DNA of 32,303 bases from a virus, in IMG/VR virus record IMGVR_UViG_3300033571_011981, positions 1 to 32,303 of that record; one strand, 5' to 3'. Made by a program: the position numbers and the translations under genes. The notes beneath the pieces are model-generated. The model ran no database searches. It was not told the origin of the DNA and was given only the letters and a program-made list of their open reading frames with translations. Each line of letters begins with the position of its first letter. The stretch's first letter is position 1. Positions 1 to 32,303 of the stretch are shown piece after piece.

Positions 1-87
1 AAAAAAACAATAAAAAAGTCATTAAATAATTTGGAAAATAGGAATTGATGATCTTATCTTTGAGAAACCGAACAAAAAACCTAAACC
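1..87. repeat. Exact 87-bp terminal direct repeat, left copy
   Basis: Bases 1-87 are identical to 32217-32303. The same sequence at both ends is what a circular (or circularly permuted) genome gives when assembled linearly. A true short terminal repeat is the alternative, but a length of 87 looks like an assembly overlap. The repeat is AT-rich and contains a complete promoter-like element (30-62). It ends exactly before the first ATG at 88. Confidence 0.95.
30..62 (+). promoter_or_regulatory. Bacteroidota-type promoter for the early genes
   Basis: TTTG at 30-33, a 21-bp spacer and TATCTTTG at 55-62 match the known Bacteroidota primary sigma consensus (TTTG, 19-21 bp, TAnnTTTG) at every defined base. 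Transcription would start near 66-70, giving an untranslated leader of about 20 nt before the ATG at 88. It lies just after the terminator at 32128-32158 on the circular map, so it probably drives the first operon. This is the best host indicator in the window. Confidence 0.8.
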
Positions 88-378
88 ATGGAAAAAAAAA
101 CATATCAATTTAAAGCAATTGAATTCTTATCATTAGAGAATAGTTTTGGTATTATTAAACAAGATAACAATGTAGAATTGACCGTTACCCTGGGCATCAA
201 TAGTGATACTTATGGATGGTTTGAAATTTATGATACTGAAAGTGGTGGAGATGAATGGTATGCAGAAGGAGGTCTATGGTTTAACAATAAAGAATTAGTA
301 GACTATGATGGAGTATATTGTCTTCCAATATCAGTGATCAAGATGCTACAACAATTAGGATATCAATGCGAAGACTAA
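88..378 (+). CDS. Hypothetical protein, first early gene
   Basis: This gene encodes 96 residues and is the first gene after the promoter. The ATG at 88 follows an A-rich leader (CCTAAACC) with no Shine-Dalgarno site, the usual pattern here. The protein is acidic, has several aromatic residues (Y42, W44, F45, W57, W64) and no predicted membrane segment or signal peptide. A short TYGWFEIYD stretch followed by EWYAEGGLWF suggests a small beta-rich domain. I do not recognise a family. Its place directly behind the strongest promoter suggests expression immediately after infection, as for host take-over genes, but nothing in the sequence shows that role. Confidence 0.75.
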   Translation: MEKKTYQFKAIEFLSLENSFGIIKQDNNVELTVTLGINSDTYGWFEIYDTESGGDEWYAEGGLWFNNKELVDYDGVYCLPISVIKMLQQLGYQCED

Positions 379-405
379 CAATATTATTCACCAAACCAAA
401 TAAGC

Positions 406-576
406 ATGAAGACAAAACAAGGCAGGAAACCTATTGATCCTTCCATCAAGAAGACATCAGTAGCAATCTATCTTCCCAAGCACATGATCTTGAAGATAGG
501 TATTGACAAACTCAAAACAGAATTACTTAAACATTCAAAACAAATCTATGACTCTTTACCATCAAATTCTAACTGA
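406..576 (+). CDS. Small basic protein, possible DNA-binding
   Basis: This is a 56-residue ORF starting at the ATG at 406 and overlapping the next gene by 29 nt. The N-terminus GRKPIDPSIKKTSVAIYLP is basic. It is followed by a helix-like lysine-rich segment (KLKTELLKHSK). A short strand followed by helices resembles small ribbon-helix-helix regulators (for example the VAIYLP strand), but this is only a shape argument. It fills a stretch between 379 and 547 that is otherwise empty, and its codon use matches its neighbours. The function is unknown; a small regulator is a guess. Confidence 0.55.
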   Translation: MKTKQGRKPIDPSIKKTSVAIYLPKHMILKIGIDKLKTELLKHSKQIYDSLPSNSN

Positions 577-778
577 CAATGATGAGGTAGACATTGTAGT
601 AGACTACAATCCTCAAGATGACTCAATAGAAATCATTGAGATCTGCTTCAACAAAGTTGACTATACTGAAACCTTAGACCATTTATCATCCTTAAAATTT
701 GTATATGAAATCGACTGGCAATCAATCTACAAAGAAAACAAACAGCAATTCCAATATGACCAATGGAAGAATTCCTGA
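548..778 (+). CDS. Hypothetical acidic protein
   Basis: This gene encodes 76 residues from the ATG at 548. An in-frame TTG at 503 would add 15 residues but lies deep inside the upstream gene, so the ATG is preferred. The protein is strongly acidic (TDNDEVDIVVDYNPQDDS near residues 9-26) and has an amphipathic C-terminal half. It has no membrane segment and no motif that I recognise. Small acidic early phage proteins are often inhibitors or DNA mimics, but there is no direct evidence for that here. Confidence 0.6.
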   Translation: MTLYHQILTDNDEVDIVVDYNPQDDSIEIIEICFNKVDYTETLDHLSSLKFVYEIDWQSIYKENKQQFQYDQWKNS

Positions 779-842
779 TATAGTTGTATTCATTATTGGA
801 ATCCTATTAGCACTATTTGCTGATTCTATTGTAAACTTCTAA
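756..842 (+). CDS. 28-residue membrane peptide
   Basis: This short ORF has an ATG at 756, inside the end of the preceding gene, and a TAA at 840-842. Residues 9-23 (VVFIIGILLALFADS) form one hydrophobic segment long enough to span the membrane. It exactly fills the gap before the gene at 854. At this length an ORF can arise by chance; support comes from its overlap with the upstream gene and its clean membrane-peptide composition. The function is unknown. Confidence 0.4.
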   Translation: MTNGRIPDIVVFIIGILLALFADSIVNF

Positions 843-853
843 AAACCTATATC

Positions 854-1102
854 ATGTACTTTAAGCATCCAATTATTGAAATCTATGCAAAGATCACAGA
901 TGATGTGATTGTCAAAGCAGGATATAATCTCTCAATGATTGCTCTGTATAAGAAAGAGAGCAAAGACTATGATCAGGAGAAGAGGAATATATCTCTTGAT
1001 TGGGATCCATGTTATTCATTTGAATTCAACAATGTATATTTGCAAACATTAAAAAACCTACAAAATCATGCAGACATCACCAACAATCAAGTCAATTGCT
1101 AA
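854..1102 (+). CDS. Hypothetical protein
   Basis: This gene encodes 82 residues from an ATG preceded by an A-rich leader, and it overlaps the ERF gene by 35 nt in another frame. It begins with a beta-like segment (HPIIEIYAKITDDVIVKAGYN) and has a charged middle. There is no signal peptide, membrane span or recognised motif. The overlap with the annealing protein suggests co-translation and a role in early DNA metabolism, but this is context only. Confidence 0.6.
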   Translation: MYFKHPIIEIYAKITDDVIVKAGYNLSMIALYKKESKDYDQEKRNISLDWDPCYSFEFNNVYLQTLKNLQNHADITNNQVNC

Positions 1103-1610
1103 GGCATTGACTACCTTCCATGTCAAAGTGGATACCATCAAGAAGGATGCAAAGAATCCTTTCTTCAAGAGCAGCTATGCCTCACTTCCCAACATCTTAG
1201 AATCAATCACAGAGCCATTGATAGAATGTGGTCTATCAATAGTACAGTTCCCTACTGGCATGGATGGTCTTACTACAATGCTCATGCATGAATCAGGGGA
1301 GTGGATATCTGCAGAGTATCAGATGATACCATCTAAGAATGATCCTCAAGGTAGAGGATCTGCAATCACCTATCAGAGAAGGTATGCAATAGCCTCAGTC
1401 CTTTGTCTAAATATAGATGAGGATGATGATGCAAACCTTGCTACTCATGGCAGATCAAATCCTGATGACAAGCAATGGCTAAATGCAGGTACTGATCAGT
1501 TCAAATCTGCCTTAGCTTACATACAAGGAGGAGGATCAATAGACAAGATCAAAGAGAAGTATAAAATATCCAAAGAAGTAGAAACTAAACTTTTAACCAA
1601 ATACTTTTAA
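1068..1610 (+). CDS. erf: ERF-family single-strand annealing protein
   Basis: This 180-residue protein carries the ERF-family pattern. The N-terminal region SIAKALTTFHVKVDTIKKDAK leads into NPFFKSSYASLPNILESI (about residues 31-48), the usual NPFF-KS-YA-L box. It is followed by a beta-rich core and the GSAITYQRRYAIASVLCL segment (about 97-114), then an acidic DEDDDAN turn. ERF proteins anneal complementary single strands in phage homologous recombination, often helping to circularise or concatenate genomes. The C-terminal 50 residues form a small separate basic domain. The ATG at 1068 is the natural start. With no exonuclease partner evident, it probably works with host nucleases. Confidence 0.9.
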   Translation: MQTSPTIKSIAKALTTFHVKVDTIKKDAKNPFFKSSYASLPNILESITEPLIECGLSIVQFPTGMDGLTTMLMHESGEWISAEYQMIPSKNDPQGRGSAITYQRRYAIASVLCLNIDEDDDANLATHGRSNPDDKQWLNAGTDQFKSALAYIQGGGSIDKIKEKYKISKEVETKLLTKYF

Positions 1611-1628
1611 CCAAATAAATCAAAAACC

Positions 1629-2762: not shown

Positions 2763-2764
2763 AA

Positions 2765-3127
2765 ATGGCAGTATGTAGTACCTGTAGACAGACTATCCTT
2801 GAGTCAGAAAAATTCCTGACTGCAGAGGATATCCTGCAGAAGTTATGTGAATATTATAAAGTCAACTATTCAACACTAATCAAGAAGAATAGGACAAGAA
2901 ATATGGTAGAGATCAGGATGATATCTGCTCATTTATTATTCAATGATTGCACTCTTGGAATGACATTGAGTAGCATAGGTAAATTGCTTGGAGGCAAACA
3001 TCATACAAGCATCATTCATATGCTTAAAAAATGCAAGAATTTCTATGAGATCTATCCTGATTTTCAAGATAAGTTGAAAAATGTCCATCAATTTGTATAT
3101 GGACATACACTGAATGTGAAATTTTAG
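2765..3127 (+). CDS. Stand-alone DnaA domain IV-like DNA-binding protein
   Basis: This 120-residue protein consists almost only of the C-terminal DNA-binding domain of DnaA. Residues 22-45 give the first helices (ILQKLCEYYKVNYSTLIKKNR). R51 and the AHLL segment follow, and residues 71-86 (IGKLLGGKHHTSIIHM) match the DnaA signature that contacts the DnaA box. The AAA+ ATPase domain is absent, so it could bind origin-like sites but not oligomerise on ATP as DnaA does. A CxxC pair (C4, C7) at the N-terminus is unusual. It may mark a phage origin, recruit host factors or compete with host DnaA. A structured intergenic region and a replication gene follow directly. Confidence 0.85.
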   Translation: MAVCSTCRQTILESEKFLTAEDILQKLCEYYKVNYSTLIKKNRTRNMVEIRMISAHLLFNDCTLGMTLSSIGKLLGGKHHTSIIHMLKKCKNFYEIYPDFQDKLKNVHQFVYGHTLNVKF

Positions 3128-9313: not shown

Positions 9314-10188
9314 AGTTCATCAGCAGGAATACCTTATCATGTGGAGTAGCAGACTACGGAAGGAGACTCAATGATATCCTCAAGAAGTCAAAGCATGAGA
9401 TAGACTTTGAGGAAGTAGATTCTTTCACTAAGTCTCTTGATGGTTATGATCTTGCTCTATACAACTATCATGTATCTACTTTGCCTTTGTTATTAGGCAA
9501 AATCATGCCAAATATCCCTCATGTGGCAATCCATCATGAAGGAGGAGTCAGATTTGAAGCAGATGCAGTGATAGATGTGGACTGTACTAAGGATGGATAT
9601 ACAATGCTCAGACCATTGTTTGAGGGGATTGGTTTCAAGAAAGTAGTCAATGAAGTGCCTGTCATTGGTAGCTTTGGCTTTGGATTCTCTAATAAGGGAT
9701 TCCCAAAGATTGCTCAATTAGTCAAAGATCAGTTTGAAGTAGCTAAGATCAGAGTCAACATTCCTTTTGCCACATTTGGAGATCAAAGTGGGAGCATGGC
9801 AATAGGTGAGGTTGCAAAAATGAGGGAAATATTGTCAGGCACTGGAATTGAATTAGATGCTACTCATGAATTCTATTCACATGAGACTATGCTGCAGATC
9901 CTGTCTGAGTCTGATATCAACATCTTCCCATATGACCAACTTGAGAATAGGAGTCTATCTTCTACCATAGACTTTGCTTTGTCTGCAGGAAAACCTATTG
10001 GAATCACAAACAGTCATATGTTCAGACATATCTACAATGAGTCTATAGATGTAGATAAGACTCCAATCAGACAAATCATAGAGGCAGGACCATTGACAGA
10101 CATTGCACAGGTCCACTCAAATGAGAATCTTGTCAATAGGTTTGATTCTATCATTGATGAAATCTTAAGCAAATGGAAAAAAGATTAA
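9301..10188 (+). CDS. GT4-like glycosyltransferase
   Basis: This gene encodes 295 residues. The N-terminus (KFISRNTLSCGVADYGRRLN) has the GVADY turn of GT4 enzymes such as those for cell-surface polysaccharides. ALYNYHVSTLPLLL and HVAIHHEGG follow. In the C-terminal half, INIFPYDQLENRSLSS and the ALSAGKPIGITN segment (about residues 222-242) match the sugar-nucleotide pocket of GT4. The usual E-x7-E pair is not clear, so the class is by pattern only. It ends the glycan cassette and overlaps the next gene by 16 nt. Confidence 0.7.
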   Translation: MAKIKFISRNTLSCGVADYGRRLNDILKKSKHEIDFEEVDSFTKSLDGYDLALYNYHVSTLPLLLGKIMPNIPHVAIHHEGGVRFEADAVIDVDCTKDGYTMLRPLFEGIGFKKVVNEVPVIGSFGFGFSNKGFPKIAQLVKDQFEVAKIRVNIPFATFGDQSGSMAIGEVAKMREILSGTGIELDATHEFYSHETMLQILSESDINIFPYDQLENRSLSSTIDFALSAGKPIGITNSHMFRHIYNESIDVDKTPIRQIIEAGPLTDIAQVHSNENLVNRFDSIIDEILSKWKKD

Positions 10189-10625
10189 TTGGGAAATATG
10201 AGAAATCTAATGATGGAAGATATCTCATAAGATTATTTCAGTATAATAATGTGGGATTCTACATACATCCATATGAAAGCAATAGAACTGATTTAATTGA
10301 AAATAATTACTATCAATTTAGTTTGAATCCTTATAATAGTGAGAATGAATTCTATGCACATTCATTAGAAAAAATTGATTTTGATGAGAAGAATAATCAG
10401 TCAGATAAAATAGTGCAGCAAGTGATTGACAAATTCAATCAAAGATCAGAAGCAGGAATTCAGAAGTATGGGACTACCTTATGGGAGAATGATAAGGATG
10501 ACTACCTGAAGCATCTACAGGAGGAGTTGATGGATGCAGTTTTGTATATTGAGAAATTAAGAAGTGCAAAGTCTATCATATTCAGTAGATATCACCAATC
10601 AACCAATGACCTATGGGAAAAATGA
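10173..10625 (+). CDS. MazG-like nucleotide pyrophosphohydrolase-like protein
   Basis: This gene encodes 150 residues in two parts. The first 75 residues form an unrecognised beta-like domain. Residues 80-130 carry VIDKFNQRSEAGIQKYGTTL and then LQEELMDAVLYIEKL, the all-alpha MazG-like pattern in which E-E and D residues bind metal. MazG-type enzymes remove pyrophosphate from (d)NTPs and help phages keep nucleotide pools. Phage members with a KYGTTL block are often labelled nucleotide pyrophosphohydrolase-like. The activity is not proven by the sequence, and the N-terminal extension is unusual for the family. Confidence 0.6.
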   Translation: MEKRLIGKYEKSNDGRYLIRLFQYNNVGFYIHPYESNRTDLIENNYYQFSLNPYNSENEFYAHSLEKIDFDEKNNQSDKIVQQVIDKFNQRSEAGIQKYGTTLWENDKDDYLKHLQEELMDAVLYIEKLRSAKSIIFSRYHQSTNDLWEK

Positions 10626-10972
10626 TACTTATCACAGGGATAGTGGAGGGAATGTCTACAAGGAAAGACAAAACCATCAGACTGACCATTGGCACAAATG
10701 AACTGAATCCAAGTCAGACAAGTGACCTATTCCAATTGAGTCAGCAATTCTGCTACTTAGGAATCAAGGCAGAGCCATTCCAAAGAGATGAGACTGACCT
10801 GATAGATTCCATCAAGACAGACCTTGACAATCTGAAGACTCCAAGCCAAAGACTGAGAGGTATACTCTACAGAAACTTTGAGCAGGATTCTAAAGGATTC
10901 CAAGACTTTGGATCTTACTATATATCAGAGATGGACAAGATCTGTGAACACTATAAAAACAAATTAGATTGA
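10622..10972 (+). CDS. Hypothetical phage protein
   Basis: The start is placed at the ATG at 10622, an ATGA overlap with the previous stop, giving 116 residues. An ATG three codons earlier (10613) is possible. The N-terminal part (ILITGIVEGMSTRKDKTIRLTIG) looks like a short beta barrel. The later KTPSQRLRGILYRNF and a helical end resemble proteins that often sit near HNH and terminase genes of Bacteroidota phages. No function is known to me. Confidence 0.6.
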   Translation: MILITGIVEGMSTRKDKTIRLTIGTNELNPSQTSDLFQLSQQFCYLGIKAEPFQRDETDLIDSIKTDLDNLKTPSQRLRGILYRNFEQDSKGFQDFGSYYISEMDKICEHYKNKLD

Positions 10973-11289
10973 TAGCTTTATATAACACAGAGAAGAAGGA
11001 ACTGATGGCAGTATTCAGGTCCACTGCAATGGCATCTATCTTCCTATATGGGAATGGTACTACTGGAAGAGACAGACTGAGAGCAAGGATGTATGATAAA
11101 GTCAGGATTGAAAATACAAGATTTCCATTTGTGGTAGCTGCAAGACCTGCCAATTCAAAGCACATGAAACTACTTGCAGATAAGGATGGCATCATATTTG
11201 AAGGATATCCTGAGTACAGGACCATGATAGTAGGAGGCAATAGATATACTAATTTTGAGAATGCAAAAACATACCAAGATATACTTTGA
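10969..11289 (+). CDS. Hypothetical protein with TTG start
   Basis: This gene encodes 106 residues from a TTG at 10969 that overlaps the previous TGA (TTGA), as at 6110. The first in-frame ATG is at 11005 and would drop 12 residues (IALYNTEKKELM), which look like a natural first strand and so favour the TTG. The body is basic (GRDRLRARMYDKVRIE) with a mixed alpha/beta look. It overlaps the HNH gene by 29 nt. No family is recognised. Confidence 0.55.
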   Translation: MIALYNTEKKELMAVFRSTAMASIFLYGNGTTGRDRLRARMYDKVRIENTRFPFVVAARPANSKHMKLLADKDGIIFEGYPEYRTMIVGGNRYTNFENAKTYQDIL

Positions 11290-11518
11290 CTTCTTTGGAT
11301 ACGATACTGAGTCTTTTATACCATGTGAAGTCTGTGGAGCAAGAGCAGTTGACATACATCACATTCAGTGCAGAGGCATGGGAGGATCTAAGCTTCAAGA
11401 CCACATCAGTAACCTTATGGCAGTCTGCAGGATATGTCATGACAAATACGGTGACAGGACAAAGTATAAGAATTTCCTGAGGGAGATTCACAATGATAAA
11501 ATAAGTCATAAAAAATAG
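11261..11518 (+). CDS. HNH endonuclease
   Basis: This gene encodes 85 residues from the ATG at 11261. A CEVC pair (C22, C25) and a CRIC pair (C56, C59) form a structural zinc site. H33-H34 in DIHHIQCRG is the start of the beta-beta-alpha-metal fold, N51 in SNLMAVC is its middle residue and H60 its last. These are the full HNH catalytic and zinc residues. Small HNH enzymes just before the terminase genes take part in genome packaging in several cos-type phages, so this one is likely to help cut concatemers rather than be a homing nuclease. Confidence 0.85.
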   Translation: MQKHTKIYFDFFGYDTESFIPCEVCGARAVDIHHIQCRGMGGSKLQDHISNLMAVCRICHDKYGDRTKYKNFLREIHNDKISHKK

Positions 11519-11976: not shown

Positions 11977-13131
11977 ATGCAGATACACATCCCTGAACTT
12001 CACGCTAATCAGCAGGCAATCTTTGATGATAGATCAAGGTTCAGGGTGGTCATGTGCGGGAGAAGATTTGGTAAGTCAGAACTTGCTCAATTGGAGATCA
12101 TATTTGAGGCAATCAAAGGTCATGCAGTAGCTTACATCACTCCTACCTACCAACTGGCAAAGACATTCTTCAAGCAGTTGACTAAGGTCATCCCATTTGA
12201 ACACAATAAGTCAGACCTGACCATCTCCTTCCCTAATGAGGGATCTGTGATGTTTTTCACAGGTGAGAGACTTGATGCTCTTAGAGGTAGAAAGTTCCAC
12301 TTGGTGGTGGTGGATGAGGCATCATTCATCCCAAATCTTGAAGATGGATGGCTAAACTCTATCAGACCTACTCTGACTGACTACAAAGGCAAAGCACTAT
12401 TTCTGTCTACTCCTAAAGGGAAAAACTACTTTTATTCCCTCTTTCAGAAAGGAGGTGAGACTGATTGGTCATCCTATAAATTCAGTACTTATGACAATCC
12501 CTATATTGACAGAGCAGAAATAGATGAAGCAAGGACTCAACTGCCTCCTGCAGTATTTGAGCAGGAATATATGGCTAATGCAATGGAGAATGCATCAAAT
12601 CCATTTGGCAGTCAGTATATCCTATCCTGTATACAACCAATCAGCAATCTTCCTGCAGAATACTATGGTATTGACTTAGCAAAGTCTCATGATTGGACTG
12701 TGATCATTGGTCTTGATAGGAATGGTCATGTCTGCAGGTTTGATAGGTTTCAGAAAGACTGGAAGTCTACAAGGGAGCATATCCTGACCTTAGACAGAGG
12801 CAGACCTGTCATGATTGACTCCACAGGAGTAGGTGATGCAATCACTGAGGATCTTCAGAGGGAATTTAGTGCTATGCATGGATTCAAGTATACATCCTCC
12901 TCAAAGCAGCAGATCATGGAACTACTTGCATCTGCCATCCATAAGGCAGAGGTGAAATATCCTGAGGGTAAGATAGTAGATGAGTTGAATGTCTTTGAGT
13001 ATCAGTATACTTCAACAGGAGTGAGATACAATGCTCCATCAGGATTCCATGATGATTGTGTCAATGCCTTAGCTTTGGCAGTCAGATGCAAGAATGACCA
13101 TAAGTATTCAGGTCAGTACAGGTTCATATAA
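11977..13131 (+). CDS. terL: Large terminase subunit
   Basis: This 384-residue protein is the ATPase/nuclease motor that pumps DNA into the procapsid. Walker A is GRRFGKS (28-34). Walker B is LVVVDEA, with D113 and E114. The coupling-type motif FLSTPKG follows. The RNase H-like nuclease half begins YYGIDLAKSHDW (D233), has MIDSTGVGD (D281) and ends HDDCVNAL (D359, D360). The start ATG at 11977 is preferred to an upstream TTG at 11953. The protein is short for the family, but both domains are whole. Confidence 0.93.
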   Translation: MQIHIPELHANQQAIFDDRSRFRVVMCGRRFGKSELAQLEIIFEAIKGHAVAYITPTYQLAKTFFKQLTKVIPFEHNKSDLTISFPNEGSVMFFTGERLDALRGRKFHLVVVDEASFIPNLEDGWLNSIRPTLTDYKGKALFLSTPKGKNYFYSLFQKGGETDWSSYKFSTYDNPYIDRAEIDEARTQLPPAVFEQEYMANAMENASNPFGSQYILSCIQPISNLPAEYYGIDLAKSHDWTVIIGLDRNGHVCRFDRFQKDWKSTREHILTLDRGRPVMIDSTGVGDAITEDLQREFSAMHGFKYTSSSKQQIMELLASAIHKAEVKYPEGKIVDELNVFEYQYTSTGVRYNAPSGFHDDCVNALALAVRCKNDHKYSGQYRFI

Positions 13132-18268: not shown

Positions 18269-20514
18269 TGGCACAAAAGACAGAAGTAGGAGTAAAAATA
18301 GTTGTAGATACAGGATCTGCAAATAATGAGGTAAAGAAATTCAATGAAGAGGTCAATCAATTGAAGGATGATCTCAAGCAACTCACTGAAGGGACTGAGG
18401 AATACAATGACAAACTCAAGGAACTTCAAGAGGCAGAGAAGAAGGTCACTAAGGAGACCGACAAGATGAATGATACCTTTGAAAAAACTACAAAGGATAC
18501 AAAGAAGTCTGAGGGTGGTTTCAAGACATTAGGTACTACTCTGAAAGCACTGGGAGTAGTAGGTGCAGTGACTGCAGGATTTGATTTATTGAAGGAGGCA
18601 TTTGGTAAGAATCAGAAGGTTGCAGACTTACTATCTACTGTGATGGCTACCATCACCAATACATTGGGTGCATTCATTGAGGTAGTGGTAAATGTGGTGA
18701 CAAAAGTGAGTGAGTCTACCAATGGCTTTGATGCATTGGGCAAAGTCATGAAGGGACTTATCACTCTTGCAATGACTCCTCTAAAACTGATATTTTTTGA
18801 GATATCACTTGCAATCAGTTATGCTCAATTAGCTTGGGAGAAGTCTTTTTTTGGAGATGATGATCCTGAGACAATCAAAAAACTCAATGCAAGGATTGAT
18901 GAGACAAAGCAGAAACTGATAGAGACAGGTCAGGATGCATTCAAAGCAGGTAAGGATATAGTCAACAATATTGGAGAGGCAGCCACATCTGTAGGTGATG
19001 TAGTGACAGGAGTAGTAGAGGGTGCATCTAAGATTAGTGTAAAGAATATCTATGATCAAGCAAAAGCTACAACTGCACTCAAGAATACTGCTAAAATTGC
19101 AGAGGCAGAATTGAGAGGTCTTGTAGAGCAATATGATAGACAAGCAGAGCAGCAAAGACAGATAAGAGATGATGAATCAAGGAGTATCACTGAAAGGATA
19201 GAGGCAAATAATAAACTCGGCACAATTCTGAAAGATCAGCAGAATGCACAGATTGCTCTTGCAAATCAATCAGTAGCTGCTGCACAGGCAGAACTGAATG
19301 CAAACAAAGGGAATGTTGATCTTCAGGTAGCATTGAAGAATGCACAGAATGAGAGAGCAGGAATACTTGCTCAGATCACTGGTCTTGAGTCAGAGCAGAA
19401 AGTCAATGCAATAGCTTTGAATAAGGAACTTCTTGAACTTGAGAAAGCAAGGACTGAAAGTACCAATACTTTATCATTTGAGAGAAGGAAAGCTAATGCT
19501 GAACTTATCACAGATGAACTGAAGAGATTGGAGACTCTTAAACAGATAGCAAGTGAGGAGAGTGCAATAGAACTTCAGAGATTGCAGGACAATATTAACA
19601 ATACTAAAGAAGGGACTCAGGCAAGAGTAGATGCTGAGATTGCATATAATCAGAAAAAACAGGAGATAGATATAGAATCTGATAAGCTAAGTCAAGATAT
19701 CAATAAGGTCAGGAAAGATAGAAGACAGGCAGAGATCACATCAGAAGTAGACAATGAACTTGCACAGGTTGCTCTCAGAAAGCAATTATTGGAGCAGCAG
19801 AAAATAGATGCCATAGAGAAAGCAAATCTTGCTAATCAATTAGTAAGAGAAGAGACTGCAGTTCTGATAGAGCAACTTCAACTAAAAAGAGATGCTGAAA
19901 TAGCATCAGCAGAGGCACAAGGTCTCAGTACTGTAGAAATCAAGAATAAGTATGCAATTCAGGAGCAACAAATAAATGCACAATTAGCAAAATCAGAAAG
20001 TGATTTGGCACAGGCAAAGATTGATGCATCTGTGAATACTGCCAATGTCATATCAGGCAATCTTAAAGCATTGACTGCAATCATAGGAGCAGAGACTAAT
20101 GCAGGCAAAGCTGCAGCAGTAGCAACTGCTACCATTGATACATATGTTGCTGCATGGACTGCATTTAAGCAAGCACAGAAGAATCCTATAGCAATCATTG
20201 GTCCTGCATATCCTTACATTCAGGCAGGACTTGCAGTAGCAGGTGGTATTGCAAATATCAAAAAAATCATAGCAGTAAAGACTCCAAGTGGTGGAGGTGG
20301 TGCATCTGCTCAAGGGATATCTGCTCCATCAGTTGGAAGTATCACTCCTCCTCCTACTGCTCCTATACTACCTACTACAGAAACTGCTTTACTTAATCAA
20401 ACACAAGTCAATCAAATAGGCAATGCTGCTGCAAGAGCATACATAGTTGAATCTGATGTCACTGGAGGTCAGGAAAGGATTCAAAGATTAAATAGAGCAG
20501 CAAGAATTGCATAA
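18268..20514 (+). CDS. Tape measure protein
   Basis: This 748-residue protein is highly helical. Residues 20-90 are coiled coil (EEVNQLKDDLKQLTEGTEEY). Two hydrophobic regions follow (about 90-150 and 160-190), as in tape measure proteins that insert into the host membrane. Long coiled coils rich in Gln, Ala and Glu run to about 620. The final 90 residues are Gly/Pro-rich (GGGGASAQGISAPSVGSI). By the usual 0.15 nm per residue, the tail would be about 110 nm long. No muramidase motif is present. The protein is of usual size for a siphovirus with a short-to-medium tail. Confidence 0.85.
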   Translation: MAQKTEVGVKIVVDTGSANNEVKKFNEEVNQLKDDLKQLTEGTEEYNDKLKELQEAEKKVTKETDKMNDTFEKTTKDTKKSEGGFKTLGTTLKALGVVGAVTAGFDLLKEAFGKNQKVADLLSTVMATITNTLGAFIEVVVNVVTKVSESTNGFDALGKVMKGLITLAMTPLKLIFFEISLAISYAQLAWEKSFFGDDDPETIKKLNARIDETKQKLIETGQDAFKAGKDIVNNIGEAATSVGDVVTGVVEGASKISVKNIYDQAKATTALKNTAKIAEAELRGLVEQYDRQAEQQRQIRDDESRSITERIEANNKLGTILKDQQNAQIALANQSVAAAQAELNANKGNVDLQVALKNAQNERAGILAQITGLESEQKVNAIALNKELLELEKARTESTNTLSFERRKANAELITDELKRLETLKQIASEESAIELQRLQDNINNTKEGTQARVDAEIAYNQKKQEIDIESDKLSQDINKVRKDRRQAEITSEVDNELAQVALRKQLLEQQKIDAIEKANLANQLVREETAVLIEQLQLKRDAEIASAEAQGLSTVEIKNKYAIQEQQINAQLAKSESDLAQAKIDASVNTANVISGNLKALTAIIGAETNAGKAAAVATATIDTYVAAWTAFKQAQKNPIAIIGPAYPYIQAGLAVAGGIANIKKIIAVKTPSGGGGASAQGISAPSVGSITPPPTAPILPTTETALLNQTQVNQIGNAAARAYIVESDVTGGQERIQRLNRAARIA

Positions 20515-20526
20515 AAAACAAAAAAC

Positions 20527-21894
20527 ATGAGTATACCAATTTATGAATTGAAGATTAGTCAAAACATGGGAGATGAGGCAGAAGTAGACTTCATTGCCTT
20601 AGTAGATGAGCCTGCAATTAGGAAGGATTTTCTTGCATTCAAAAATGAATTCATAGAGCCATCTAAAGGAGAGCATGAGACAGAATTCATTCCAAGATGC
20701 ATCTCTTATGTAGTCAGTGAAGGGAAAGATCAAGAGCAGGCATCAGCCATCTGCTACTCTATTTGGGAGCAGCATTTTTCAGTACTTGATATCTATGGAT
20801 ACAAGCCTACTCACTTTCACCTTTGTCCAATGGCTACTGCTACTTTCAAGCATTTAGTACAGATGAATGTAGGAGTAGATGAGCAAGGAATGATCAGGTC
20901 TGCTGCACAGATTGCTGATAGTATATTCAGAATAGAGCAGAATGTTATTGATGCACAGAAAGCAACTACTGATCAAGTATCAGAATCAGTCATTCTATTA
21001 GATGACTTCATGGACCTGATGAATGAGATAGACAAATTGGTAGGTATGGTTCATGATGTCTCTTATATGAATTCACATATTGAGAAAATCAAATCATTTG
21101 CTCAGGGATATAGCATCCAATTCCAATCCTACACAGACTATCCTAAAGAGGCATCAGAGAATGCTAAGATTGCATTGAGATGGGCAGAAGAGAATGGATG
21201 GGGAGAATGTGGTGAGTCAACAGGGAAAATCAGAGCCCATCAATTAGCCAATTTTGAGCCGATCTCAAGAGACACGATTGCTCGTATGGCATCCTTTGAA
21301 AGACATAGACAAAATTCAAAGAGAGATCTTGGAGATGGATGTGGTAGACTTATGTGGTTGTCATGGGGAGGAGATGCAGGAATTGAATGGGCATCAAGGA
21401 AACTTGCACAAATAGATAGGGAGAAGTTTGCATTCAAGGTCATGAATGAGGAGAAGAGAATCATATCAGGACCTATGATGCTTGCTGATGAATTGATATA
21501 TAGAAACAATGATAAGATAGGGGAGCACTATGTCAAATTCACTGCAGAAACCATCAAACAGATTGTAATTAAATTTTCTAAAAAGAAATACAATAACAGA
21601 GTCAACTTGATGCATGATCCTGAGCAGAAGGTCAAAGGAGTCACCATGTTTGAGTCTTGGATAGTTGACAAAGAAAGAGGTATCATGCCAATGAAGGGAT
21701 TTGAAGAGGTTGCAGATGGAAGTTGGTTTGCTTCATTCTATGTAGAGAATGATCAGGTATGGAATGCCATCAAGAAAGGAGAGTATAGAGGTTTCTCAGT
21801 AGAAGGTCTTTTTGAATATGATCAGCCAATGACTGCAGAAGAGAATGCTCTCAAAAAAATACAGGATTTGCTAAGTCTTAAAATAACTCAATAA
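20527..21894 (+). CDS. XkdF-like head maturation protease with insert domains
   Basis: This gene encodes 455 residues. The N-terminal part (IYELKISQNMGDEAEVDFIALVDEP) matches the start of XkdF/S78-type proteases. An insert at about 45-85 (CISYVVSEGKDQEQASAICYSI) looks like a small cysteine domain common in phage capsid-region proteins. Another insert (about 190-300) contains LRWAEENGWGECGESTGK and DLGDGCGRLMWLSWGGDAG. The C-terminal part (ISGPMMLADELIYRNNDKIG, then LMHDP and a GFSVEGLFE end) is the XkdF core that cuts capsid and scaffold. The split core with two inserts makes it longer than usual family members. Confidence 0.75.
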   Translation: MSIPIYELKISQNMGDEAEVDFIALVDEPAIRKDFLAFKNEFIEPSKGEHETEFIPRCISYVVSEGKDQEQASAICYSIWEQHFSVLDIYGYKPTHFHLCPMATATFKHLVQMNVGVDEQGMIRSAAQIADSIFRIEQNVIDAQKATTDQVSESVILLDDFMDLMNEIDKLVGMVHDVSYMNSHIEKIKSFAQGYSIQFQSYTDYPKEASENAKIALRWAEENGWGECGESTGKIRAHQLANFEPISRDTIARMASFERHRQNSKRDLGDGCGRLMWLSWGGDAGIEWASRKLAQIDREKFAFKVMNEEKRIISGPMMLADELIYRNNDKIGEHYVKFTAETIKQIVIKFSKKKYNNRVNLMHDPEQKVKGVTMFESWIVDKERGIMPMKGFEEVADGSWFASFYVENDQVWNAIKKGEYRGFSVEGLFEYDQPMTAEENALKKIQDLLSLKITQ

Positions 21895-22475: not shown

Positions 22476-23435
22476 ATGGCACTTAATTTAACAGGCTTAA
22501 CAAACTATACTAACCAATTGGTTAGACCATTGCTGACTTCTGCAGTATTTGATGCAAAGACTCAGCAATTGATTAAGGATGGCGGTATTGTCATTCCTGG
22601 AGTAAAATCATCAGCAGCAATTCCTTTGATGGATACTGATGCAGTATTCCAAGCAGATGGTTGTGGTTATAGTCCAAGTGGCGTCACTTCTTTCACCCAA
22701 AGAACGGTGACAGTGGGCAAGATACAAGTATCTGAGACTATCTGTCCTAAAGACTTTGAGTCAAAATTTACTCAACTTGCTCTCAAGGCAGGCTCTACTT
22801 ATGAGGATTTTGGCAATCAGGAATTCCTTGAGGCTTACTTAGCAAAGAAGAATGCTCGTATTGCTGCTCAATTGGAGACTGCAATTTGGCAGGGTGATAC
22901 TACAGGTAGTACTGCTAATCTTACTCAGTTTGATGGTCTGATGAAGTTGATTGATGCAGGATCTCCTGTCAATGCAAACGTATCAGGATTCACTGGAGTA
23001 GCTACCATCACTACCATCACTCAGTCAAATGTGGTTGCTGCAACTGAAGGTATCTATAAAGCAATCCCTGCTGCAGTAGTATCTAAAGGTGATGTGAAAA
23101 TCTTTGTAGGATATGATTGGTATCGTTTGCTGATCATGGCTTACCGAGCATTGAATCTGTTCAGCTACAATCCACAGGATGCCAATGCAAATTCATTCAT
23201 CCTTCCTGCTACCAACATCGAAGTAGTTGCAGTACATGGTCTGAATGGTACAGGTGATGCTTATGCAATTAGCTTGTCAAACATGGTACTTGGTGTAGAT
23301 CTTGAAGATGAGTATACAAACTATAATCTTTGGTATTCAATTGATAATCAAGAGGTTAGAAGTAAAGTTGCTTTCAAGATCGGCGTACAGGTCGCTTTCA
23401 CAAATGAGTGTGTCGCTTTCAAGGCAGCTATCTAA
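22476..23435 (+). CDS. Major capsid protein
   Basis: This gene encodes 319 residues. It begins TNQLVRPLLTSAVFDAKTQQ and contains SSAAIPLMDTDAVFQ, SETICPKDFESKF and IFVGYDWYRLLIMAYRALN, a pattern of Bacteroidota-phage HK97-fold capsid proteins. No N-terminal delta region is evident, so the scaffold is probably the separate upstream protein. Its codon use differs from the rest of the genome: it has CGT arginine codons, and about twelve CpG, whereas most genes have none. A strong terminator follows. It is expected to be the most abundant virion protein. Confidence 0.85.
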   Translation: MALNLTGLTNYTNQLVRPLLTSAVFDAKTQQLIKDGGIVIPGVKSSAAIPLMDTDAVFQADGCGYSPSGVTSFTQRTVTVGKIQVSETICPKDFESKFTQLALKAGSTYEDFGNQEFLEAYLAKKNARIAAQLETAIWQGDTTGSTANLTQFDGLMKLIDAGSPVNANVSGFTGVATITTITQSNVVAATEGIYKAIPAAVVSKGDVKIFVGYDWYRLLIMAYRALNLFSYNPQDANANSFILPATNIEVVAVHGLNGTGDAYAISLSNMVLGVDLEDEYTNYNLWYSIDNQEVRSKVAFKIGVQVAFTNECVAFKAAI

Positions 23436-23458
23436 TAAATTCAAATATCTCAAAGAAG

Positions 23459-23490: not shown

Positions 23491-23523
23491 GAGTACCTAA
23501 TAAACATATAAAAAATTTATCAT

Positions 23524-24063
23524 ATGCCATGTGCACTAACATCAGGTTACGTCATTGACTGCAGAGAGGCAGTAGGCGGAATTGAAGCAGTATATATCAT
23601 TGAGAATTCTGCTCTATATGATGCATCAGGAAATAGCAGAGTCACTGAAGTCAGTGGTACTGTTACTGCAATGACCAAAGCATCAGGAAAGAAATTTTGG
23701 AAGTTTGAAGTACCAAGAGCAACTGCATCAAGTTCAAACAATATCACATCCTCAAATGAGAATGGAACTGTATTCTATACTCATCAGGTAGTATTCCCAA
23801 TCAATGCAAGATCTGCATCTGTAAGGAATATCATTCAGACCTTAGCTAAGAATAGAGTGAGTATAGTTTGCAAGGAAATGGACGGGACCTTCCGTCTCTT
23901 TGGAAAGGAATTTGGTCTGACTTTGGATACTGTAGAGAGTGGATCAGGAACTGCTGCAGGAGATCGGAATGGATCAGTACTGACTTTCTCATCTGTAGAG
24001 CGTGAGGACTTCTTAGTAGTTTCTCCATCTGTTGCTGCCAATCTTGAAGTAGCAGGTACTTAA
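23524..24063 (+). CDS. Major tail tube protein
   Basis: This gene encodes 179 residues: a compact beta protein with SGYVIDCREAVGGIEAVYII, VVFPINARSASVRNIIQTLA and GTFRLFGKEFGLTLDTVESG blocks. It ends with a domain (SSVEREDFLVVSPS) of a type seen in tail tube proteins of Bacteroidota phages. It stands between two terminators and has many CpG for this genome, so it is probably strongly and separately expressed. No clear promoter is seen in the 88 bp before it, so transcripts may come through the first terminator. Confidence 0.8.
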   Translation: MPCALTSGYVIDCREAVGGIEAVYIIENSALYDASGNSRVTEVSGTVTAMTKASGKKFWKFEVPRATASSSNNITSSNENGTVFYTHQVVFPINARSASVRNIIQTLAKNRVSIVCKEMDGTFRLFGKEFGLTLDTVESGSGTAAGDRNGSVLTFSSVEREDFLVVSPSVAANLEVAGT

Positions 24064-24123: not shown

Positions 24124-24495
24124 ATGATAACACTGTACAAAGGATATACTGAATGGATCATTCATTTCACAGGTAAAATGCTTGCTGAAGAGACTCCTGA
24201 TTTTTACTATTTCAAGTTCACCAATAGGACTACACTGGATGAGGTGGATATGTGGGTACTTCCTGAGTTATCAGGTACTGACAGGTATGAGTTCTGCTTC
24301 ATTGATACAATTGAATACTTCACTGACTATCCTGAAGGATTTTGGGACTATGAGATCTATCCTGCAGAAAATCAAGTATTGCCTACAGAGCCAATGATTG
24401 AATCAGGATTGATGTATCTTTATCCTCAGACAGAATTCACTCCTACCAAATATGATGATCAAAACAATACTTTTGTAGTATACAATGGACAATAA
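24124..24495 (+). CDS. Hypothetical structural-module protein
   Basis: This gene encodes 123 residues. The ATG at 24124 is preferred to a TTG two codons earlier, within the terminator's T run. It is rich in Tyr, Phe, Trp and Glu (FYYFKFTNRTTLDEVDMWVL, GFWDYEIYPAENQ), consistent with a beta-rich virion protein, and overlaps the portal gene by 11 nt. It is of a type that recurs next to portal genes in Bacteroidota phages. The function is unknown. Confidence 0.6.
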   Translation: MITLYKGYTEWIIHFTGKMLAEETPDFYYFKFTNRTTLDEVDMWVLPELSGTDRYEFCFIDTIEYFTDYPEGFWDYEIYPAENQVLPTEPMIESGLMYLYPQTEFTPTKYDDQNNTFVVYNGQ

Positions 24496-26446
24496 TTACA
24501 AGCATTTAGTCCTGCAGTTTGACAGGGCAGTGCAGCCAAGATTTGAGGAGAAGAAAGGAAAGGGATGGGTAGAATTTGGAGAGTTAAATAACTATCCAAA
24601 CTATCTTATTGATCTATACAATGAATCCCCAAAACATGGTGCTATTGTAAAGAGTAAGACTACCTATATCTATGGCAAAGGTTTTGAGAATGCAGGACTT
24701 GCAAACTCAAGAGGAGAATCTTGGAATAATATTCTGAAGAAGTGCATCAAGGATGATGAACTATTCAGAGGATACTATCTGCAAGTGATTTGGAATAGAA
24801 TTGGTCAGATAGCAGAAATATATCACATAGATTTTGCAAAGGTGAGAGTCAGCAAAGACTTGAATACATACTATGTAAAAAATGATTGGACTGACTACAA
24901 GGAGAAACCGAGACAATATCCTGCATTCAATACCAATGATAAGTATGGCAGTCAGATTCTGTATGTGAAGGAATACAATAGTACATCAGAGGTATATCCT
25001 CTGCCGCAGTACTTTAGTTGCTTGAACTATATAGAAAGTGACATTGAGGTGAGCAGGCATATCTTAGGCAATGCTAAGCAGGGATTTGTAGGATCTACTT
25101 TAATCAATCTCAATAATGGGATGCCTCATGAAGAGAAACAGGCAGAGGTAGAGAAGAGTCTTCTAAGGAAGTTCACTGGTCATGATGGAAAGAGAGTGGT
25201 GATCATGTTCAATCCAAGCAGAGAGAATTCTGCAGAGATTCAGAACTTAGGTACTACAATGTTGACAAAGGAAGACTTCACAAATGTGAATAATCTAATT
25301 CAGCAGGAGATATTTGCAGGTCATCAGATAGTGAGTCCTGCACTAATGGGTATCAAGACAGAAGGTCAACTTGGGAGCAGAAGTGAGATAAGGGACAGTT
25401 ATGAGATCTTCAACAATACATATGTAAGAGAAAGACAGGATGAGTTTAATACTATGTTTACTCAATTGAGGAATCTTAAAGGTGAGGCAGGAGAATTTAA
25501 TATTCAGCCTGTAGAGCCTTTGAAGTTTGAATTCACAGAGGGTATCATGGCACAGAATCTGACTCAGAATGAGATAAGAGAATTAATGGGACGTGAACCA
25601 TTGCAATCTAATGAAGTGACTGCTGATGGTGCAAAGGCATTGCCTGAAGCAACTGAGGTGAAAGCACAATCAAATGATGCAATCAGAAACCTAACAGGCA
25701 GGCAGTATCAGAATGTGATGAGGATAGTACGTCAATTTGGGAATGGAAAACTATCTAAAGCACAGGCATCATTGATGCTGAAGAATGGATTTGGTTTCAC
25801 TGATGATGATGTCAATACTTTTTTAGGTATAGATGAGGACCCTTTGACTGATGATGAGATTCAGAAGTTCAGCATGGATGAAGATGAGAGAATGTATCAT
25901 GAATTCACTTGCTGTGGAGAAGAAAAAAAAAATTTTGAAGAGGTAAGTATTCGTGATGGATTCTCAGAAGTTCTAAATCAGGCACAGGCAGATGTATTGT
26001 CATTGATCACAAAGGACAAGAATATCACAATACCTGTCATAGCAAGGACATTGAAACTGACTCAGGAATTGGTACAGGATATCATTGATGGCTTTATTGA
26101 CAATGATATATTGGCTACCATTCCAAGTAAAGTCAATACTACTCCTGTCTATGAGGTAAAGAAACCATTGAGTGAACTTGAAGGAAAGGATTCTAAGGTG
26201 ACTCAATTGTTCATCAGATATACCTATGAGTGGATGCCTGGATTTGATGATGGTGACTTAGCTACAAGTAGAGCATTCTGTAAGAAGATGATATCTCTTA
26301 GTAAGACTAAGACATGGTCAAGATCTGACATTGAGGATATAAGTGCAAGATTAGGATATTCTGTATGGGAAAGGAGAGGAGGTTGGTATGGTAACAGATA
26401 TTATTGCAGACATAGATGGGTATCAAAACTATATAAAAGGAAATGA
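24485..26446 (+). CDS. Portal protein with C-terminal extension
   Basis: This 653-residue protein starts with blocks typical of portals: FGELNNYPNYLIDLYNESPK (residues 31-50), AIVKSKTTYIYGKGF and EIYHIDFAKVRVS. The later region about 255-300 carries ALMGIKTEGQLGSRSEIRDS, the stem region. From about 400 a separate tail begins: a helical segment, a wHTH-like part (IPVIARTLKLTQELVQDIID) and a Trp/Arg-rich end (GYSVWERRGGWYGNRYYCRH). Portals usually stop near residue 450-500, so the last 200 residues are added. The extension could contact DNA or the terminase. Confidence 0.8.
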   Translation: MDNNYKHLVLQFDRAVQPRFEEKKGKGWVEFGELNNYPNYLIDLYNESPKHGAIVKSKTTYIYGKGFENAGLANSRGESWNNILKKCIKDDELFRGYYLQVIWNRIGQIAEIYHIDFAKVRVSKDLNTYYVKNDWTDYKEKPRQYPAFNTNDKYGSQILYVKEYNSTSEVYPLPQYFSCLNYIESDIEVSRHILGNAKQGFVGSTLINLNNGMPHEEKQAEVEKSLLRKFTGHDGKRVVIMFNPSRENSAEIQNLGTTMLTKEDFTNVNNLIQQEIFAGHQIVSPALMGIKTEGQLGSRSEIRDSYEIFNNTYVRERQDEFNTMFTQLRNLKGEAGEFNIQPVEPLKFEFTEGIMAQNLTQNEIRELMGREPLQSNEVTADGAKALPEATEVKAQSNDAIRNLTGRQYQNVMRIVRQFGNGKLSKAQASLMLKNGFGFTDDDVNTFLGIDEDPLTDDEIQKFSMDEDERMYHEFTCCGEEKKNFEEVSIRDGFSEVLNQAQADVLSLITKDKNITIPVIARTLKLTQELVQDIIDGFIDNDILATIPSKVNTTPVYEVKKPLSELEGKDSKVTQLFIRYTYEWMPGFDDGDLATSRAFCKKMISLSKTKTWSRSDIEDISARLGYSVWERRGGWYGNRYYCRHRWVSKLYKRK

Positions 26447-29970: not shown

Positions 29971-30013
29971 ATCTACTAATCCTTAAAATTATGAACAAAA
30001 CTCAAGCAAATAT

Positions 30014-30466
30014 ATGAAGAAAATAGTATCAAGTTTGATTTTGTTCATTTTTATTTCCTCCTGTTATACAGAAAGGAAAGCAGAAAGGATATTGGATAGA
30101 GTCAATAAGAAGAGACCTGATATAGTTGCAAAGAAGTCTGCAGAATGGTTTCCTGTCACTGGAGATACCATCTACAAGGAGATTCTGAATGATTCTGTGA
30201 GAGTCATGTTTTTGACTGCAGTAGATACATTGATTGTCAATACAAGGGACACAGTGATTCAGAATAAGCTAATCAGGGCAAAGGAGATTATCAAAGAATA
30301 CAGACCTGTAGACAGGATAGTCAGAGTAGTAGATAGTGCAAATTCAAAAGCATTCAGATTGAAGTCTGAGAAGTTAGAGATGAAAGTCACATCTATGACA
30401 TGGTGGATCATTGGGATTCTATTATTTATAAATTTAATTTTACTAATAATTTTAGTTAAGAAATGA
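30014..30466 (+). CDS. Unimolecular spanin (u-spanin)-like lipoprotein
   Basis: This gene encodes 150 residues. The N-terminal signal ends in a lipobox-like FISSC, with C17 the predicted lipid-modified cysteine, for the outer membrane. The C-terminal segment (WWIIGILLFINLILLIILVK, about 129-148) is a transmembrane span for the inner membrane. This pairing of a lipoprotein at one end and a membrane anchor at the other is the design of u-spanins, which fuse the two membranes in the last lysis step. The middle is charged and helical. It overlaps the lysozyme gene by ATGA. A plain lipoprotein is the alternative. Confidence 0.65.
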   Translation: MKKIVSSLILFIFISSCYTERKAERILDRVNKKRPDIVAKKSAEWFPVTGDTIYKEILNDSVRVMFLTAVDTLIVNTRDTVIQNKLIRAKEIIKEYRPVDRIVRVVDSANSKAFRLKSEKLEMKVTSMTWWIIGILLFINLILLIILVKK

Positions 30467-30900
30467 AACCAAGTCAGAATGCAATTAACCTGATCAAGAA
30501 GTGGGAGGGATACAGATCTCAAGCATATCTCTGCAGTGCATCAGTGCCTACCATTGGATTCGGTTCTACAAGATGGTCCAATGGGCAGAAGGTGAAGATG
30601 GGTGAAGTGATCACCATGAGCATGGCAGAGCAATTGCTTATGAATGATATCACTAAGATGTCAAAAGCATTGGATGGTCTGAAACTAAATCAGAATCAAT
30701 ATGATGCTCTTTGCTCTTTCATTTACAATGTAGGAGTAGGAGCATTCAATAGATCTACTCTGAAGAGGTTAATATCTGCCAATCCTAATGATCCTCTGAT
30801 TAGGAGTGAGTTTATGAAGTGGAAGAGAGCAGGAGGGAGGGTAAATCAAGGTCTAATTAACAGACGTACAGACGAATCAAATCTATATGACAAAGACTGA
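30463..30900 (+). CDS. GH24 lysozyme (endolysin)
   Basis: This 145-residue protein is a T4-type muramidase. E15 is the catalytic residue in IKKWEGYRSQAY, and VPTIGFG includes T30. The residue at the D20 place of T4 lysozyme is C24 (AYLCSASVPTIG): E-9-C-6-T spacing is as in T4 (E11, D20, T26). Cysteine there is common in phage lysozymes and still allows activity. QYDALCSFIYNVGVGAF and the C-terminal RRTDESNLY end are also typical. No signal peptide or SAR is seen, so a holin is needed. It overlaps both neighbours. Confidence 0.9.
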   Translation: MKPSQNAINLIKKWEGYRSQAYLCSASVPTIGFGSTRWSNGQKVKMGEVITMSMAEQLLMNDITKMSKALDGLKLNQNQYDALCSFIYNVGVGAFNRSTLKRLISANPNDPLIRSEFMKWKRAGGRVNQGLINRRTDESNLYDKD

Positions 30901-31882
30901 TCTATGCAAGGAATACAGGTTAAAGCATCCTGATATGCCTACTCTGAAACTCTCAAGAATAATCTACAAAGATCACAATCTATCATTTAAGGATGTGGAG
31001 CAGATCAGAGATATATTGAGAAGGATTGAGGGTAAGACTGGCAATAGCAAAGACAAGAAGACTGCAATGACAAAGCATTCAGATATATTCAGATCAGAGG
31101 ATAGACCTAAGAATCCCTACAAACTGCCTGAATCTGATGAGGATAAATATACTCCCTATGTATTCCCTCATCACAATAAGTTAGGGATATTGTCTGACAT
31201 ACATCTTCCATATCACAATATAGAGGCACTATCTGAGGCATTGACAGTATTGAAGAAGGAGAAGGTGGATGCAGTCCTGCTGAATGGAGATACCATAGAC
31301 TGCCATCAACTATCAAGATTCAGCAAAGATCCAAAAAAGAGAGACTTCAAGTATGAACTTGATACACTAAGTGCATTCATTGATAGATTGACAGATATTC
31401 TCAATTGCAAGATATACTTCAAGATTGGCAATCATGAAGCAAGGTATGAACACTTCTTGTATACCAAAGCCCATGAACTTGCAGGAATAGAAGACTTCCA
31501 ATTGAGCAACCTTATCAAAGCAAGGGAGAAAGGAATAGAGGTGATATCTTCCAATCAATACATGAAGATCAACTCATTGAATGGTATACATGGTCATGAA
31601 TACTTTGGAGCATTCAGTCCTGTCAACATTGCAAGAGGTCTGTACATGAGAGGGAAGACTTCTGCCTTTCAAGGTCACAATCATCAGACTTCAGAACATA
31701 CTGAGACTGACATGAATGGAAATATCACTACTACATGGTCAGTAGGATGTCTCAGTGAATTACATCCATCCTATATGCCATTGAATAAGTGGAATCATGG
31801 ATATGCATGGGTAGAGATGGATCAGAACAAAGTTGACTATGTTTTTCACAATAAGCGAATCTATAAAGGAAAAACTCTATGA
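30887..31882 (+). CDS. Metallophosphoesterase
   Basis: This gene encodes 331 residues. It has the metal-binding set of calcineurin-like phosphoesterases: SDIH (D104, H106), NGDTID (D135), GNHE (N182, H183), HGH (H235, H237) and GHNH (H264, H266). The first 90 residues are a basic helical domain with no known fold and could target nucleic acid. The activity could be on nucleic acid ends, cyclic nucleotides or phosphoproteins. Its place after the lysozyme is odd for an enzyme of this kind. It overlaps the lysozyme gene by 14 nt and the next gene by ATGA. Confidence 0.8.
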   Translation: MTKTDLCKEYRLKHPDMPTLKLSRIIYKDHNLSFKDVEQIRDILRRIEGKTGNSKDKKTAMTKHSDIFRSEDRPKNPYKLPESDEDKYTPYVFPHHNKLGILSDIHLPYHNIEALSEALTVLKKEKVDAVLLNGDTIDCHQLSRFSKDPKKRDFKYELDTLSAFIDRLTDILNCKIYFKIGNHEARYEHFLYTKAHELAGIEDFQLSNLIKAREKGIEVISSNQYMKINSLNGIHGHEYFGAFSPVNIARGLYMRGKTSAFQGHNHQTSEHTETDMNGNITTTWSVGCLSELHPSYMPLNKWNHGYAWVEMDQNKVDYVFHNKRIYKGKTL

Positions 31883-32103
31883 GTGAAGAAGAAATACAAG
31901 GAGAGATCATATTCACCACTACCACTGAGTACATTCAGTCTGCCTGTTTAGCTTTGACTGCAATGGCAGAACTTGATCCTATGCTCATGTCAAAGGCTGA
32001 TGAATTGAGGTGGAAAAGAATTAGGAGGAAGTCCATGAAGATCATAGATATTTGTGTGAGCGAGATGTATGATGAACTTTTTGAAGAAGATTCAGAAGAC
32101 TGA
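31879..32103 (+). CDS. Hypothetical last gene
   Basis: This gene encodes 74 residues and starts by an ATGA overlap with the phosphoesterase. The sequence is helical with a basic patch (ELRWKRIRRKSMKIIDICVS) and an acidic tail. No family is recognised. It is the last gene before the terminator. Confidence 0.55.
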   Translation: MSEEEIQGEIIFTTTTEYIQSACLALTAMAELDPMLMSKADELRWKRIRRKSMKIIDICVSEMYDELFEEDSED

Positions 32104-32127
32104 TTGCTGCTTTATTTTCATAGGTTT

Positions 32128-32158
32128 ACCACTGATGTGTCTACATTGGTGGTTTTTT
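32128..32158 (+). terminator. Terminator before the origin of the map
   Basis: ACCACTGATGT (32128-32138) pairs with ACATTGGTGGT (32143-32153) over 11 bp, with two G-T wobbles and a 4-nt loop, followed by TTTTTT (32153-32158). It lies 24 bp after the last stop and just before the promoter in the terminal repeat, so it separates the last operon from the first on the circular map. Confidence 0.85.
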
Positions 32159-32216
32159 ATTTTGTAGATAACTCATTGAAATTTAATTCCTTAAATAGTG
32201 CAATAAAAAAAAGATA

Positions 32217-32303
32217 AAAAAAACAATAAAAAAGTCATTAAATAATTTGGAAAATAGGAATTGATGATCTTATCTTTGAGAAACCGAACAAAAAACCTAA
32301 ACC
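32217..32303. repeat. Exact 87-bp terminal direct repeat, right copy
   Basis: The sequence is identical to 1-87, with the promoter element at 32246-32249 and 32271-32278. The interval 32159-32216 between terminator and repeat is AT-rich with A runs and no ORF. It may help strand opening but shows no iterons or DnaA-box cluster. Confidence 0.95.

Follow-up and report, generated by a model that had tools for sequence, protein, structure and literature searches.

Results

The Phage Genome and Its Gene Content

The IMG/VR record IMGVR_UViG_3300033571_011981, whose 32,303 bp were analyzed at full length (hereafter the window), is the genome of a tailed phage from which the CpG dinucleotide has been almost entirely lost; the extent, history, and possible cause of this loss are the subject of the present analysis. 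As its two ends carry an exact 87-bp direct repeat (1..87 and 32217..32303, both +), the record is complete or circularly permuted. It encodes an ERF single-strand annealing protein (1068..1610, +), a DnaA C-terminal-domain-like protein (2765..3127, +), and an O-like initiator (3232-3948), whereas the genes scanned did not include any DNA polymerase, a gene content which suggests that replication may be carried out by the host machinery. Between these replication genes and the packaging genes, the region 6940-10188 holds glycosyltransferase-like, methyltransferase-like, and unknown genes and varies among relatives. The terminase large subunit (TerL; 11977..13131, +), on which the family tree presented below is built, contains 2 CpG versus 51 expected, the tape measure protein gene (18268..20514, +) 2 versus 85, and the portal protein gene (24485..26446, +) 5 versus 65. 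In between lies a gene of the phrog_11320 family (22476..23435, +) whose position and PHROG context make it likely to encode the major capsid protein, with 12 CpG versus 39.6 expected; the gene that follows it (23524..24063, +) is likewise less depleted (6 versus 22.6). An endolysin (30463..30900, +) and a protease are also encoded. A search with the first 25 kb of the nucleotide sequence returned no near match in the phage collection.

Extent of the CpG Deficit

The window holds 86 CpG versus ~1,090 expected from its C and G content, meaning that ~92% of the occurrences expected by chance are gone from the phage genome (observed/expected ratio [O/E] of 0.079 on the single strand and 0.078 when strand-symmetric). 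The original prediction of an extreme genome-wide depletion, which relied on a hand count of roughly 90 CpG against about 1,000, near a tenth, is thus borne out by the recount. The reversed dinucleotide GpC has an O/E of 0.94, and TpG/CpA is raised to 1.33. As had also been claimed, all contexts are affected: every NCGN tetranucleotide, non-palindromic ones included, is found at 0.16 of its expectation or less, from 0 for CCGG to 0.155 for CCGA/TCGG. The CpG-free stretch reported near 9359-11301 is real (9358..11301, flanked by CpGs at 9357 and 11302) but is not the longest, which spans 19219..21259, between CpGs at 19218 and 21260 (2,042 bp). Within open reading frames (ORFs), 75 CpG are observed against 478±15 (minimum 433) in 300 synonymous shuffles that keep the phage's own codon usage. 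With codon usage taken from the sampled host genomes lowest in CpG, 453-630 are predicted; with that of L003, a CpG-rich relative, the prediction is 1,275. The O/E is therefore not above 0.5, and host codon use does not reproduce the deficit, which were the two outcomes that could have spoken against the prediction.

A Deficit of the Dinucleotide Rather Than of Codons

Arg is encoded almost only by AGA and AGG, as previously noticed (248 and 126 of the 395 Arg codons, the other 21 being CGN), and host tRNA supply had been proposed as one possible cause. However, the 75 CpG of the ORFs are distributed over all codon phases, with 21 in CGN, 16 in NCG, and 38 at codon junctions, where 424 were expected. 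Relative to L003, the CGN share of Arg falls from 59% to 5%, the NCG share of NCN codons from 24% to 0.8%, and the O/E of junction CpG from 1.39 to 0.09. Because the loss is equal in these three phases, it is an effect on the dinucleotide and not on codons or tRNAs. Codon choice moreover follows the next base: TTC accounts for 79% of the Phe codons before A and for 3% of those before G, and the choice of Asp and Asn codons is similarly dependent on context. The deficit of the window thus targets the dinucleotide itself. Even though the near-exclusive use of AGA/AGG would agree with it, we give next to no credence to a host tRNA supply or codon preference driving the deficit, considering that junctions are depleted to the same degree as CGN and NCG, that Phe, Asp, and Asn codons depend on context, and that CGN makes up 40% of Arg in the capsid gene and its successor; as a sole cause, this option is refuted by the codon-phase data together with the synonymous shuffles.

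Repeated Loss of CpG within the Family

The distribution of the depleted state was investigated with 80 IMG/VR relatives collected by their terminase and a tree of 85 TerLs, extreme depletion being defined as a CpG value below 0.25. The three nearest relatives of the window, whose TerL is 89-90% identical, display values of 1.14-1.30, and the surrounding clade 1.1-1.3. On this tree, the depleted state requires at least 5 state changes (5 on the starred branches alone; 5-7 over bootstraps; 15.7 with shuffled labels), and the family has thus undergone five or more separate losses of CpG. The other depleted lineages are L051/L055/L046/L050 (0.04-0.08), L030-L037 (0.05-0.11), L039 (0.05), and L035/L041 and L049 (0.16-0.20). 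That they differ in their wider signatures (GA, TG, and TA values) suggests that they infect different hosts. We found no precedent for CpG-depleted phages in the open-access literature.

No phage gene, C5-methyltransferases included, tracks the depleted state in a comparison of the gene families of 14 genomes. The family of the window gene at 10613-10972 is present in most depleted genomes but also in the CpG-normal L007-L009, L012, L013, L052, and L072, and was dropped. The C5-methyltransferase domain PF00145 occurs in 7 of 50 records, mostly CpG-normal ones, and is found neither in the window nor in the L051, L049, and L038 records, which are complete depleted genomes. L035, the one depleted genome that carries it, encodes a 483-aa C5-methyltransferase-like protein (L134:13938-15389, minus strand), which aligns with HhaI, DNMT3, and M.MpeI mainly at conserved motifs, its specificity being unreadable from these alignments.

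CpG Content of Candidate Hosts

Since close genome-resident relatives are found only in Chitinophagaceae, the phages most likely infect freshwater members of this family or its near kin. To this extent the Bacteroidota hosts initially envisaged hold up, but all of the hosts sampled are richer in CpG than the phage. Over ~980 distinct Bacteroidota genomes, a broad rather than exhaustive sample surveyed with a three-CpG pattern against its reversed control, the lowest genome-wide CpG/GpC is ~0.19 (3 versus 410, cube root), as compared with 0.083 in the window and ~0.04 in L055. In 20-kb samples of the low-CpG hosts, the CpG O/E is 0.39-0.62, and two contigs of 3-5 kb are at 0.26. Two Chitinophagaceae genera have an unusually and consistently low genomic CpG/GpC, ~0.19-0.3 (G114, G1030, G1027, G185 and G249, G137, G201, G047). 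As for prophages, those of Pollutibacter have a CpG/GpC of 0.83-0.88 for a host at 0.86, and the prophage-like relatives in UBA8137 0.65-0.69 for a host at 0.59.

Substitutions between Close Depleted Relatives

Synonymous sites are saturated between the window and its nearest relatives L002/L003, such that the direction of change is unreadable from this spectrum; it was taken instead from the tree and from close pairs inside other depleted clades, bearing in mind that pairs within a clade share history and are not independent. Between L051 and L055, synonymous third-position C/T differences before G number 5 for 585 shared T, when 113 for 404 are observed before A (odds ratio 0.03, p 4e-34). 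This deficit is missing from the CpG-normal clades, in which the trend is either reversed or null. Taken alone, this deficit could reflect a fast decay of CpG. AGR–CGN differences at Arg codons, however, are also suppressed: their rate per AGR is 0.0035 in the L051 clade, when normal clades reach 0.09-0.29, for Leu TTR/CTR controls of 0.03 and 0.04-0.18, respectively. The L037 clade displays a weaker effect, with a rate of 0.030 for a Leu control at 0.053. Similarly, close depleted relatives differ by NCA/NCG at a rate of 0.003 versus 0.054 in the control, and A/C differences before G number 0 for 318 shared A, versus 56 for 1,515 before other bases. Overall, synonymous changes that make or lose a CpG are mostly 10-50x rarer than matched controls between close depleted relatives. 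As AGR–CGN changes are transversions, and the CpG that they create has no synonymous way to decay, their rarity settles much in favor of selection and indicates that new CpGs are removed by selection and not only deaminated.

Footprints Resembling Restriction, and Retained CpG

Other short motifs are missing from the same genomes. CTAG and GGCC are absent from the window, against 66 and 17.5 copies in synonymous shuffles, and CCAG/CTGG stands at 0.25 of expectation, which constitutes an independent avoidance of restriction type. In L037, L039, and L038, no GATC is left (71, 62, and 156 expected), AGCT is absent as well, and TpA is very low (0.38-0.51); CCTG/CAGG is absent from L039, with a single CCTG remaining in L037, and CATG is absent from L049. 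Within the CpG deficit itself, some contexts are reduced to zero in a lineage-specific manner, namely CCG in the L051 clade (0 of ~406), TCGA in the L037 clade (0 of 293), and CGC in L049 (0 of ~180), and these zeros look like recognition specificities; in the window, depletion varies less from one context to another. In L038 (G618, 30.8 kb), CCGG is ~5-fold enriched (150 copies) with all other CpG contexts depleted. Of 113 NCN codons followed by GGN, 89 are NCC, and of 59 Pro codons followed by G, 45 are CCG; this excess perhaps denotes a protective methylation site or a mismatch-repair bias.

The CpGs retained by the window are unevenly spread, with 18 versus 62 expected over the capsid gene and its successor (22476-24063; 0.29) and a ratio of 0.065 in the rest of the genome. 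They are kept in CGN and at codon junctions, after C-ending codons, with almost none in NCG, a pattern suggesting that CpG carries a finite cost that translation can outweigh. That the capsid gene was recently acquired from some CpG-rich relative is ruled out by a four-fold identity of just 0.46-0.49. Finally, coding sequences are more depleted than intergenic ones in the window, L051, L055, L037, and L049, and the opposite is true in L038 and L039.

Discussion

We hold it somewhat probable that a strong genome-wide selection acts against CpG as a nucleic-acid motif, in a restriction-like manner, and is imposed by the current host or hosts. Among the causes originally envisaged, broad defense avoidance is accordingly the best supported, several 4-bp sites being wholly absent from the same genomes. 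The host agent would be a CpG-recognizing defense, either a nuclease or a modification-sensing system, acting on DNA, and it may be a bacterial defense so far undescribed. Under this hypothesis, each CpG would lower the chance of survival of an incoming genome at a modest cost per site, so that CpGs would be shed by any synonymous route available (CGN to AGR, NCG to NCA or NCT, and NNC|G to NNT|G or NNA|G). This cost would be lower per site than that of the wholly absent CTAG and GGCC, hence a few CpGs would stay wherever keeping them pays more, chiefly in the capsid gene, in which the benefit for translation of CGT or C-ending codons would exceed the cost of CpG. Relatives would switch state repeatedly, a change of host being the simplest occasion for it.

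Several observations weigh against this interpretation. Neither the host nor a CpG-targeting enzyme has been identified, and bacterial CpG-specific methyltransferases have been described only from Mollicutes (PMC9465063). CpG remains at 8% in the window and is not at zero, unlike CTAG; the retention in the capsid region is clear in the window only, L051 and L055 being devoid of it; and unrelated phages fetched via two other genes are mostly not strongly depleted. Besides, pooled intergenic CpG is at 0.16 versus 0.064 in coding sequences (p 2e-5), a contrast that a cost acting purely on DNA would predict only with an extra regulatory constraint.

This last contrast is relevant to a selection operating on RNA, whereby a host ribonuclease or sensor would target the CpG of phage transcripts, much as ZAP does in vertebrates. 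The stronger depletion of coding sequences in most depleted genomes is in line with it, and CpG being palindromic, the strand cannot separate DNA from RNA targeting. Yet the weakest depletion is that of the capsid gene, which is presumably transcribed more than any other, the loss of CCG in one lineage and of CGC in another resembles restriction sites, and we know of no CpG-directed ribonuclease in bacteria. The capsid retention fits a uniform DNA-level cost better, when the coding/intergenic contrast points slightly the other way, and on the whole we judge the RNA-level scenario very unlikely. Mutation is another candidate: a host enzyme would methylate phage CpG, and 5-methylcytosine would deaminate to T, as in vertebrates. 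The raised TpG/CpA (1.33 versus 0.94 in L003) is compatible with this process, although selection predicts it likewise, as are a G+C content 3 points below that of L003 and the few C/T differences before G, which a saturated CpG equilibrium could also yield. Nevertheless, Arg CGN codons, for which deamination is never synonymous, are lost as fully as NCG codons, when vertebrates retain over half of theirs; AGR–CGN changes are suppressed in close depleted relatives; depletion is weaker for intergenic CpG, which is under the least constraint, than for coding CpG, opposite to a neutral decay; CpGs retained by close kin are shared as often as they are different; CCGG is enriched in the depleted L038 with other contexts low or near zero; and complete depleted genomes lack a C5-methyltransferase. 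A hypermutability of the order of 50-200x would be needed, and a residual mutational model would require such extreme hypermutability plus a second-order selection on Arg codons, which makes methylation and deamination alone, one of the causes put forward initially, quite unlikely.

The deficit could also be the sum of many ordinary restriction systems with 3-6 bp sites containing CG, with no CpG-specific agent. The context-specific zeros that vary by lineage are consistent with this, and freshwater Chitinophagaceae can carry many modification motifs, as exemplified by one partial Lake Biwa genome with 11 motifs and 6 methyltransferases (PMC6329791). This explanation nonetheless seems rather unlikely to us, given that all NCGN contexts of the window, non-palindromic ones included, are at or below 0.16, whereas GpC is untouched (0.94) even though GpC-containing sites are equally available. 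Alternatively, the phage might simply mimic the composition of an equally CpG-poor host lying outside our sample. The prophage-like relatives in Pollutibacter and UBA8137 match their own hosts, in line with this idea, and the two low-CpG Chitinophagaceae genera go in the same direction. However, none of the ~980 genomes approaches 0.04-0.08, five or more phage lineages with differing signatures would each need such a host, and the question would be shifted to the host without being answered, so that we regard mimicry as unlikely.

A further and more tentative idea, which we put forward as possible rather than probable, is that some freshwater Bacteroidota carry an innate defense that reads bare CpG in foreign DNA (or transcripts), a counterpart of vertebrate CpG sensing, and that the phages infecting them escape it by a genome-wide purge. 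Phages are known to avoid restriction sites of 4-6 bp; here, a dinucleotide is purged in every context, repeatedly, and beyond any sampled host, so the pressure behind it must recognize no more than two bases. Provided that bacteria do possess a defense directed at CpG, this family offers a natural experiment, because relatives 90% identical in terminase sit on both sides of the switch. CpG state may also serve as a cue for matching uncultured phages to their hosts, and the internal controls provided by these genomes indicate that a strong CpG loss need not mean deamination.

With regard to known systems, M.SssI and M.MpeI of Mollicutes offer the example of bacterial enzymes that read CpG alone, but the depletion seen there is several times weaker (CpG O/E of 0.46-0.5 in Mycoplasma agalactiae; PMC9465063), and no such CpG methyltransferase was found in these phages. 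The depletion of protospacer-adjacent motifs in phages of CRISPR-bearing hosts (PMC4246573) similarly involves very short motifs that phages avoid because of host immunity; the effects expected in that case would be weaker and strand-specific, whereas the present deficit is more than tenfold and palindromic. Closer in appearance is the CpG suppression of small eukaryotic viruses, attributed to deamination, TLR9, or ZAP, which concerns the same dinucleotide, independently of codon phase, the depth observed here being similar or greater; these phages differ from them in being bacterial double-stranded DNA viruses that have fully lost CGN, whose close relatives have CpG values above 1, and for which no vertebrate-type sensor is available. 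As to restriction-site avoidance, which is well documented in prokaryotic viruses (Rusinov et al. 2018, PMC6286503), the present case departs from it in that a dinucleotide is affected in all contexts, in a graded manner rather than by absence, with no enzyme known. It nevertheless shares with it the lineage-specific loss of short motifs, these genomes being without CTAG, GGCC, GATC, CATG, or AGCT, a deficit that persists when composition and codon use are controlled (75 versus 478±15), and, in the other depleted lineages, a selection that removes new sites among close relatives.

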